64,000 nt of DNA, taken from positions 124,001 through 188,000 of the forward strand of contig JBBPIG010000003.1 of assembly GCA_038040445.1 (NCBI GenBank), written 5' to 3'. The translations under genes and the position numbers were made by a program. This DNA is from Acidobacteriota bacterium (GTDB lineage Bacteria; Acidobacteriota; Blastocatellia; UBA7656). The notes under the pieces are model-generated. The model worked only from the letters and a program-made list of their open reading frames with translations, searched no databases and was not told where the DNA came from. Below are positions 22,138 to 28,368 of this stretch, in pieces; within the stretch, counting starts at the first letter, position 1, and the number at the start of each line of letters is the position of its first letter.

Positions 22138-24129
22138 ATGAAGATTCGCCTGCTGACAATCCTGCTGTTCGTCGTTACCACCGTCGCGTCGGTGCACTCG
22201 AGCATTACGCCATCTCAAACAACGCAGAGCTCGGCGCTAACGAAAGTCGCTCCGTGGGTGCTTGAACAGACCAGCCTGTCCAGGCAAGCGGAGTTCTTCG
22301 TAGTGCTCGCCGACCAGGCTGACCTAAGCGGCGCCGCTTCGCTCAACACCAAGAGCGCGAAGGGTGATTACGTCTATCAGACCCTTAGGAAAAAGGCGCG
22401 GGAGACTCAGGGACCGATTGTCGAATGGCTTGTCTCGCGCGGGATCGAACATCGCTCGTTCTACATCGTCAACGCGATTCTGGTTACGGGTGACCGTAGC
22501 GTCGCTATGGAGCTTGCAGCGCGCCCTGAGGTAGGGCGCATCGAGGGCAACCCGCAAATTCAGAATCTTCCGCAGCCCGGAGTCGAGATCGAATCACAAG
22601 TCCACATCACCGCGGCGGAGGGCAATATCACAAATACGGGAGCGCTTGATGTGTGGGCGCTGGGCTTCACCGGACAGAACGCAGTCATCGGCGGCGCCGA
22701 CACCGGGATTCGCTTTGACCACGCGGCGCTCAAAAGCCACTACCGTGGAACTAAAGGCTCGAAAGCCAAGCACGATTTCAACTGGCACGACAGCATTCAT
22801 TCCGGCGGCGGCGCTTGCGGACCTAGTTCTATCGTGCCGTGCGACGACAACGGGCACGGCAGTCATACGGTAGGCACCGCGATAGGCGATGATGGAGGGG
22901 CGAACCAAATCGGCATGGCGCCGGGAGCGAAATGGATTGGCTGCCGCAATATGGATCAGGGCACTGGCTCGCCTGCCACCTACATGGAATGCTTCGAGTT
23001 CTTTCTCGCCCCTTATCCGGTGAACGGCACTTCATCAAACGGCGAGCCTTCGAAGGCGCCGGACGTCACTATCAACTCCTGGGTGTGTCCGCCGTCGGAG
23101 GGCTGTTCCGCGTTGACGCTGCAAGCGGCAGTCGAGGCGCAACGGGCTGCCGGCATAGTGACGGTAGTCTCGGCAGGCAATTACTCATCAAACTGCTCGA
23201 CTATCGTGAACCCACCTTCGCTCTACGAGGCAGCTTACAGTGTGGGAGCTTTCGACCATACTACCGGATTGATCGCGGGGTTCAGCGGGCAAGGGCCGAT
23301 CACTATAGATGGCAGCAACCGGCTCAAACCCGACATCACCGCGCCCGGCGTTGGGATTCGTTCCAGCACGCGGACGAGCACGACGGCTTACGCTTCCCTG
23401 AGCGGCACTTCTATGTCCGGTCCGCACGTCGCCGGGGCGGTGGCGTTGTTGCTGTCGGCGCGGCCCGATTTGCGTGACAATGTGACGGAGTTGCAAGGCT
23501 ACTTGAACGACACCGCAACGCCTGTTTCGTCCAATGCATGCGGCAGCGCCGGAGTGCCCAACAACACCTGGGGACATGGGAGGCTCAACGTAAAAGCCGC
23601 GGTCGATCTCGCGCTGACGACGATGGTGCCGGCTAACAACGCATTTTCCGCCGGCGGCGGAACGGGGACCATCAACGTGAATGCGGTGGGTGCCACTTCC
23701 TGGACCGCGGCCAGCAACGATTCGTGGATAGTCATCGACTCGGGATCGAGCGGCACCGGGAGCGGGGCGGTCAGCTACAGCGTCGCGCAGAATTCGGGAC
23801 CGGACGCGCGCATCGGCGCCGTCATCATCGCGCGAAGAACCTTTGCGGTGTTTCAAGCGGGAACCGTGCCGGGAACATGCAGTTACTCGATTGCTCCGGT
23901 GTCGAAGACTATTCCGTCAAGGGGTGGAAACGGTACGGTGGAAGTGGGAGCAAGCGCGGGTTGCGTGTGGGGCGCGGTGAGCAACGACAGTTGGATCACT
24001 GTGGTATCTGGCGCCGGCATTGGCGCCGGCGCAGTGACCTATTCGGTGGAGGCAAACATTGGTCCGGTGCGCAGGGGTACTATCACCATCGCCGGGCAGG
24101 TGTTCTCGATCAAGCAGAAGCGAGGTTGA
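22138..24129 (+). CDS. Secreted subtilisin-like serine protease with BACON-type repeats
   Basis: 663 aa, exported. Signal peptide (residues 1-22), inhibitor-I9-like propeptide (about 40-150), peptidase S8 domain (about 155-490) with Asp188 (GGADTG), His240 (NGHGSHTVG), oxyanion Asn348 (SAGN) and Ser425 (GTSMSGPH), then two BACON-like repeats (about 500-577 and 580-663) marked by SNDSWI and AGxGxGAVxYSV. BACON repeats usually bind carbohydrate or mucin-like surfaces. The signal, propeptide and full triad indicate an active extracellular protease. Confidence 0.95.
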   Translation: MKIRLLTILLFVVTTVASVHSSITPSQTTQSSALTKVAPWVLEQTSLSRQAEFFVVLADQADLSGAASLNTKSAKGDYVYQTLRKKARETQGPIVEWLVSRGIEHRSFYIVNAILVTGDRSVAMELAARPEVGRIEGNPQIQNLPQPGVEIESQVHITAAEGNITNTGALDVWALGFTGQNAVIGGADTGIRFDHAALKSHYRGTKGSKAKHDFNWHDSIHSGGGACGPSSIVPCDDNGHGSHTVGTAIGDDGGANQIGMAPGAKWIGCRNMDQGTGSPATYMECFEFFLAPYPVNGTSSNGEPSKAPDVTINSWVCPPSEGCSALTLQAAVEAQRAAGIVTVVSAGNYSSNCSTIVNPPSLYEAAYSVGAFDHTTGLIAGFSGQGPITIDGSNRLKPDITAPGVGIRSSTRTSTTAYASLSGTSMSGPHVAGAVALLLSARPDLRDNVTELQGYLNDTATPVSSNACGSAGVPNNTWGHGRLNVKAAVDLALTTMVPANNAFSAGGGTGTINVNAVGATSWTAASNDSWIVIDSGSSGTGSGAVSYSVAQNSGPDARIGAVIIARRTFAVFQAGTVPGTCSYSIAPVSKTIPSRGGNGTVEVGASAGCVWGAVSNDSWITVVSGAGIGAGAVTYSVEANIGPVRRGTITIAGQVFSIKQKRG

Positions 24130-24163
24130 TCTCGTTAAGGATGCGGGGGAGCTGAAGACTCCG

Positions 24164-24352
24164 GGAATCCCACCCACGGCAGTGGTTGGATTGTTCAAGC
24201 CCAGCCTACAAAGGGGCGCACCCGGATTCCCGTTTTTCCCCTCCTCTCCCCTCGCGGCGAGGGGAGAGAGAGATAACAAAAACAAAGGGGGCGGGCGGCT
24301 CTCTATGTAGGCTGGGCTTGAACGATCCACCCACTGCCGTGGGTGGTATTCC
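24164..24352. repeat. 47-bp inverted repeat with inner hairpin
   Basis: Arms 24164-24210 and 24306-24352 pair over 47 bp with three mismatches; the interior contains a second hairpin TCCCCTCGCGGCGAGGGGA. Most of the 351-bp space between the protease and pyrR is this element. Confidence 0.88.
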
Positions 24353-24420
24353 GGAGTTTCACAGTCTCTGTCAGAGGTGATGCGCGAAAATCTGACGCGA
24401 CCCTTCAAAAGCGGGTCACC

Positions 24421-27548: not shown

Positions 27549-28127
27549 CTAGTGTCTTTTCAGGTCGTCGAACAATTCATCAATCGAATGGTATTCTCTC
27601 TGTTGCTGTTTTTCACGAGCGAAGAAAGAGTCTTTGGCTATTATGAACTCTCGTTCTTGAGACCAGATCTTTATTACTGTCTCCCGGTTGATCTTAGATT
27701 TGGGCTGGCTTCGGAGTTTGAGAACGCCTGCTTTCAAGAGGTCCCAAAGCGCATTCGAGGCGATGTTTACGGCGACGGGGTTCGAGGCAATCGCGAGAGA
27801 AATAGTTACTACAAGCGGCAGGACGCCTTCTGAAAACCGATATTCACCATTGTGCAGGGAAACTTCAAAGCCTTGACCGAACGACTCTGCAATGGCTGAT
27901 CGCTCAATGTCGGATGCTTCAGCGGAAGCATAAATATCTAACCCTGGCCTTTCGGCATTCACATGCAATGTGACCGGCACCTGCGGTCGCGGCATTCGCA
28001 GGCTTGCTTTCGCAAAGAACGTGTCGTCCAACGGCGGAATATCGGAAGTGTCTATCTCCTCATCCGTCAGCTTTTCAATTCGTTCCCAGTCCGTCTCTGA
28101 TGGCTTGTTCATATTTGATGCGTTCAT
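27549..28127 (-). CDS. BrnA-like antitoxin with a foreign C-terminal domain
   Basis: 192 aa. The N-terminal about 60 residues are clearly BrnA (DWERIEKLTDEEIDTSDIPPLDDTFF, then MPRPQVPVTL). Normal BrnA (about 90 aa) continues into a ribbon-helix-helix DNA-binding domain; here the sequence departs after VPVTLHV and gives about 130 unrelated residues with a hydrophobic stretch (GVLPLVVTISLAIA) and NPVAVNIASNALWDLLKAG. No family recognised for that part. It overlaps brnT by 53 bp, as is usual for this module. Start ATG 28127 has GATGAAGC upstream; ATG 28112 is possible. Confidence 0.75.
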   Translation of the reverse strand: MNASNMNKPSETDWERIEKLTDEEIDTSDIPPLDDTFFAKASLRMPRPQVPVTLHVNAERPGLDIYASAEASDIERSAIAESFGQGFEVSLHNGEYRFSEGVLPLVVTISLAIASNPVAVNIASNALWDLLKAGVLKLRSQPKSKINRETVIKIWSQEREFIIAKDSFFAREKQQQREYHSIDELFDDLKRH

Positions 28128-28368
28128 GCTTCATCGCCTTTCGCAACGAAATCACCCTTATCGTTTCTGCATCGAGTTCAGCAAACACGATTACGACAAT
28201 CTGTCCCTTAAGCGACCCGATTCCAATCCAACGGTCCTCGCCATAATCCTCTCGTTCATCAAGACCGGCAAGCAACGGCGCTTCGAAGATCTCCCACGCA
28301 TCAGCGAAATCGAAGCCATGCTTACGGATGTTGGATTTGTTCTTTTCATCGTCCCACTCGAAGCGCAC
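28075..28368 (-). CDS. brnT: BrnT toxin (ribonuclease of BrnTA system)
   Basis: 97-aa BrnT-family (DUF497) toxin, an RelE-fold RNase that inhibits translation. Typical FEWDDEKNKSNIRKHGFDF, then AWEIFEAPL, RWIGIGSLKGQIVVIVFAE and the C-terminal IRVISLRKAMKHERIKYE. Full length and apparently intact. First gene of the module with the antitoxin-like gene overlapping it. Confidence 0.92.
   Translation of the reverse strand: MRFEWDDEKNKSNIRKHGFDFADAWEIFEAPLLAGLDEREDYGEDRWIGIGSLKGQIVVIVFAELDAETIRVISLRKAMKHERIKYEQAIRDGLGTN

Follow-up and report, generated by a model that had tools for sequence, protein, structure and literature searches.

The closest described relative of the locus reported here is the BrnT/BrnA type II toxin-antitoxin system of Brucella abortus, formed by the toxin BrnT (PF04365) and the antitoxin BrnA, which carries a ribbon-helix-helix (RHH) domain (PF14384). 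In Brucella, BrnA represses brnTA, as stated in the available sections of two reports (PMC11980606, PMC10714953). The first of these also describes, in the part accessible to us, single-gene BrnT-BrnA fusions, of which 31 of 33 have an RHH and the other two a helix-turn-helix (HTH). For the toxin Aave_1720, the corresponding part of the second report gives Lys-17, His-18, Phe-29 and Glu-86 as important residues (PMC10714953). In the sections of the BrnTA literature that were available, no report was found of BrnA N-terminal modules placed on bodies that bind no DNA.

Such an arrangement is present in the window, i.e., the whole stretch of 64,000 nucleotides from an Acidobacteriota bacterium that was analysed. 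Both genes lie on the minus strand, at the positions given by the first-pass annotation, which had correctly described a BrnT followed by an antitoxin with a BrnA N-terminus and an unrelated rear end. As in BrnTA pairs, the toxin gene directly precedes the antitoxin gene and overlaps it. The features are as follows:

28075 to 28368, minus strand: brnT, BrnT ribonuclease toxin of 97 aa, with a GTG start; PF04365 at 7.1e-25.
27549 to 28127, minus strand: hybrid antitoxin gene of 192 codons, with an ATG start, beginning 53 nt within brnT; coding-like throughout, in one frame.
27951 to 28127, minus strand: BrnA N-terminal module, residues 1-59; it includes VPVTLHVNAE, the counterpart of the RHH beta strand.
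27552 to 27950, minus strand: orphan C-terminal domain, residues 60-192 (133 residues), found where the RHH is expected; hydrophobic stretch at residues 102-120.

The neighbour of the pair is pyrC. The pyrC loci of nine other relatives hold neither the pair nor the C-terminus within approx. 1.5 kb on each side (one genome, G001, of the same genus, gave no pyrC match), and an origin beside pyrC in the relatives was rejected on this count (0/9). Flanking repeats that could mark an insertion amounted to two short direct pairs, with no inverted ones. A promoter scan gave nothing for brnT, and k-mers over-represented in front of brnT genes of the non-hybrid type yielded no usable operator for the subfamily of the window. 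The third-position G+C is 0.50 in the C-terminus and 0.55 in brnT versus 0.58-0.72 in the six other window genes compared, which might be a weak sign of foreign origin. Elsewhere in the window, the stretch between two genes at 24059-24380 carries one 13-letter protein motif repeated in frames of both strands, as in a short interspersed repeat.

The toxin of the pair is intact. It matches the whole PF04365 profile (1-77 of 77), and among solved chains it matches 7vd7_A (6.7e-16) and 3u97_A, a BrnT (7.8e-9). In a comparison with up to 96 non-hybrid BrnTs, 22 columns are conserved at 85% or more, and the toxin of the window keeps all of them, including H17 and E82; by eye, the counterparts of the four Aave_1720 residues are probably K16, H17, F28 and E82. 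An intact BrnT implies that a working antitoxin accompanies it.

The first 59 residues of the antitoxin are a near-consensus BrnA N-terminus, with 66% identity over this length in the best match outside its own genome, and contain the BrnT-binding segment of BrnA (DW..I....D.EIDTSDIP). The A1 profile gives 110.6 bits, although its 13 rows include the window sequence; in PHROGs the N-terminus alone was matched (phrog_30665, 0.0037, residues 14-46). In the structure 7vd7, chain A is BrnT-like and chain B is an antitoxin of 44 residues; residues 9-31 of chain B match the BrnA N-module at 0.00077 with the A1 profile; the window antitoxin sequence alone reaches E=0.71. From this likeness to chain B, the N-module of the window should contact BrnT, in agreement with what the initial annotation had expected.

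In contrast with the canonical relatives L063 and L068, which match PF14384 at 7.4e-14 and 5.4e-11, the window antitoxin gave no match to this family. With filters off, a profile of the RHH gave nothing in the frame of the antitoxin or in another frame just downstream, and a degenerate RHH was rejected on the basis of this search. The proposed replacement of the RHH by about 130 unrelated residues was thus borne out: residues 60-192 have no match in Pfam and NCBIfam at E up to 10, nor in PADLOC. A possible likeness to the effector-associated domains of bacterial conflict systems received no support from Pfam and is not claimed. Single-sequence structure models were poor, with a mean pLDDT of 49.2 for the full protein and 50.3 for residues 56-192.

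To evaluate the coding status of this region, a 3-periodic Markov model was trained on 45 window ORFs totalling 50,373 bases, with the locus itself left out. The C-terminal DNA scored 0.2 in the BrnA frame, against values between -6.0 and -67.8 for the remaining five. Since the whole C-terminus is coding-like in the BrnA frame, a frameshift was rejected. Codon preference alone leaves the frames unseparated (-0.124 in the gene frame versus -0.038 in one antisense frame).

Among relatives, matches to the antitoxin fall on the N-terminus, and some of the matched proteins have no RHH after it. Loci with a BrnA N-terminus were then collected from 35 of 396 genomes of the phylum, 70 of 386 genomes of Cyanobacteria (best loci fetched), 10 of 301 genomes of Chloroflexota and a scan of genome_contigs (best 80 of 422 confirmed relatives). 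The resulting sample of 211 loci favours close N-terminal matches, and its counts are not population frequencies. It contains 157 distinct BrnA N-terminal segments: 137 continue in frame into an RHH (124 of them with an adjoining BrnT), one (L111) has the RHH in another frame, and 19 are without it. Five of the 157, including the window, combine an intact BrnT with a non-RHH C-terminus, and these C-termini are of four unrelated kinds. Hybrids are rare, because 137 of the 157 segments keep the RHH and because no open frame longer than 155 aa appeared among the matches listed for the 386 cyanobacterial genomes. The segments without RHH, besides that of the window, are the following:

L014: 170 aa, intact BrnT; membrane segment with a Kyte-Doolittle (KD) value of 2.36.
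L011 (the same locus as L121): 203 aa, intact BrnT.
L128: 218 aa, intact BrnT.
L116: 292 aa, intact BrnT.
L073, 2640-4125: 374 aa, GHMP kinase domains fused in frame to the BrnA N-module, in an uncultured cyanobacterium.
L043, 511-1647, minus strand: BrnA N-module with an S4/pseudouridine-synthase protein (PF01479, PF00849), in the acidobacterial genome G208.
L023: DUF433 on a BrnA N-terminal segment; no brnT was seen, the locus lying at the edge of a contig.
L062: an apparent run-on, rich in arginine.
L106, L156, L027 (twice), L168, L021, L054, L158, L123 and L058: ten further segments, short or truncated.

By eye, all hybrids part from BrnA after about residue 46-59. A new BrnTA subtype had been suggested from the window alone; as a single family it is not supported, given that the non-RHH C-termini are of four or more unrelated kinds. 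Two neighbouring observations concern BrnA in other arrangements. In a cyanobacterial MAG (L102:2665-3213), BrnT and the BrnA N-terminus form one open frame in which the RHH is truncated; and a second BrnA in the genome of the window belongs to another branch and retains the RHH (L002, G000:C28:27548-27688).

The relationship among the hybrids was examined with a FastTree of 101 BrnTs, with modest supports (0.23-0.94). The BrnTs of the window and L014 group with L063, L070 and L076; that of L116 with L102, L078 and L080; and those of L011 and L128 with L067, L071 and L007. Except for the truncated L102, these tree neighbours have RHH antitoxins. As the C-termini of the hybrids are unrelated, separate events can be argued, and replacements of this kind, with differing C-termini, look to have occurred independently in a few further lineages. 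The C-terminus of L014 had no match in 83 genomes, a draw outside which its own genome fell, or in plasmids; that of L116 shows 26-28% identity to hypothetical proteins of plasmids (best 20 of 55 records, one context inspected).

L121 and L128 come from different genomes of Pyrinomonadaceae, with upstream and downstream neighbours that look alike by eye. Aligned over residues 2-142 of 155, the two C-terminal domains share 40% identity, with G492 assigned as the genome of L128 on the basis of matching contig coordinates. A homologous domain common to both indicates that a hybrid can persist. A single inheritance is made less likely by the tree, where the BrnTs of L011 and L128 are not placed as sisters, although the nodes within their group are weak. 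A stand-alone relative of this domain was found in G509 (L211:1435-2495, minus strand), 31 nt after a PIN-domain gene (PF01850, 8.6e-12) that is itself preceded by a small ORF of 80 aa; the frame of this relative seems broken near the end, with the last conserved stretch in another frame. A stretch of an Agrobacterium plasmid is 34% identical to the same type of domain.

From these results, we propose, with a probability of roughly 0.7, that the N-module of BrnA is self-sufficient, and that in the window it has exchanged its RHH for an in-frame fusion to another coding sequence, with BrnT still neutralised. The first 46-59 residues or so of BrnA would constitute the neutralising module; after loss of the RHH downstream of it, the module would have been joined in frame to its new partner. 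It would still bind BrnT and block its RNase activity; that the module alone neutralises the toxin is what we infer from 7vd7 and from the intact toxin. Binding to the operator through the RHH, and with it autorepression, would be gone, because the RHH is lost and BrnA represses brnTA in Brucella (PMC11980606, PMC10714953, in the sections available). The C-terminal domain could give the hybrid a folded body and perhaps its own location, partner or stability.

A possible competing explanation, which we place somewhat below even odds, is an accident: through a deletion, brnA ran into a reading frame of neighbouring or foreign origin, the module happens to neutralise BrnT, and the C-terminus has no function and is decaying. 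A free gene adjoining a toxin-antitoxin pair, of the type seen in G509, could be brought into fusion with brnA by a deletion. In all searches, the C-terminus of the window is indeed confined to its own genome. The 396 genomes of the phylum and 162 of the class gave no convincing match beyond that genome; at E up to 0.05, with the own genome counted, there was any match at all in 6 of 396 and 7 of 162, respectively, and the weak matches (E 0.004-0.04) at seven loci inspected were rejected as unrelated proteins or wrong frames, broken-frame matches being left aside. Plasmids gave no match and viral contigs no relative; in a seeded scan of genome_contigs, 178 stretches fitted a pattern and none was confirmed, and phages gave one weak match (E=0.6 over 40 residues). 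Hence, of the first-pass annotation's concern that the architecture might occur only here with signs of frameshift, the first part applies to the exact C-terminus, whereas the frame is sound and other BrnA hybrids exist; the search it had proposed, of the C-terminus alone and of the full architecture, found relatives for the architecture but not for the C-terminus.

Accidental fusion also agrees with the fate of two other hybrids. In L073 the brnT match is present but interrupted by a short insert with the look of an inverted repeat, and in L043 no brnT was found in 500 nt translated upstream; these cases show decay to be another setting in which fusions of this type appear. The GHMP-kinase enzyme of L073 is presumably a homoserine kinase. 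The ten short or truncated segments, and a codon preference that does not exceed the value for one antisense frame, point in the same direction. On the other hand, the BrnT of the window is intact, its partner is coding-like over 133 codons, and one type of hybrid has kept its C-terminal domain in two genomes (L121 and L128).

A selected role for the new domain, as a membrane tether, a sensor or a part that binds a partner, controlling the time or place of BrnT release, seems doubtful. The initial annotation had named a sensor, a tether or a second effector as candidate roles. It would draw on the hydrophobic segment that the initial annotation had pointed out, and which is indeed found at residues 102-120 with a mean Kyte-Doolittle value of 1.99, as well as on the clearer one in L014. 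Nevertheless, the C-termini of L011/L121, L128 and L116 have no comparable stretch (best KD 0.39-1.18), and that of the window has neither a homologue nor a convincing model. A broader version, in which the N-terminus of BrnA would be a general tag, a safety catch that fits onto nearly any protein, BrnT is freed when the carrier protein is degraded, modified or moved, and each hybrid, the one of the window included, acts as a sentinel for the fate of the C-terminal partner, appears improbable to us.

It is also decidedly improbable that the new domain is another kind of DNA-binding domain that maintains autorepression by other means; the two HTH replacements among the 33 BrnT-BrnA fusions (PMC11980606, available part) offer a precedent, but residues 60-192 matched no DNA-binding family in Pfam, NCBIfam or PDB, including any recognisable HTH family, and the hydrophobic stretch is atypical for such a domain. 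Finally, we regard as very improbable that the C-terminus is not a protein and that brnA, having lost its 3' end, reads into non-coding or antisense DNA: the sequence is an orphan and the next-best frame is the plus-strand mirror frame (-6.0 versus 0.2), but only 6 of 2000 dinucleotide shuffles stay open, none reaches 0.2 (maximum -6.4), and no displaced RHH lies nearby.

The preferred reading, that of a self-sufficient N-module, makes a question testable, i.e., whether the first 50 or so residues of BrnA suffice to hold BrnT. The hybrids are a natural case of a type II module stripped of its RHH, and their recurrence points to a portable neutralising module. If they are functional, BrnT systems could be re-wired by exchange of the antitoxin body, and annotation based on the RHH would miss them: the window antitoxin has no match in Pfam or NCBIfam.

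Compared with BrnT/BrnA of B. abortus, the locus shares an intact BrnT, the toxin gene in first position, the overlapping antitoxin gene and the BrnA N-module; it differs in having 133 unrelated residues and no PF14384 match in place of the RHH. With the BrnT-BrnA fusions, as far as the available text describes them (PMC11980606), it shares the exchangeable part after the BrnA N-module; however, those are one protein whose exchanged part is DNA-binding by prediction, whereas here there are two genes and no recognisable DNA-binding domain. In the Aave_1720-Aave_1719 pair of Acidovorax citrulli, according to the accessible part of the report (PMC10714953), a BrnT-like toxin is accompanied by an antitoxin that was reported to have an N-terminal BrnA-like region and not to bind the DNA tested; this antitoxin differs in having 107 residues and a reported RNase activity. 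The Panacea antitoxin domain (PMC8832971, available sections) meets many toxin families, in contrast with the one toxin family and several antitoxin bodies seen here, and no homology is claimed; the likeness is that of a portable neutralising domain placed in different contexts.
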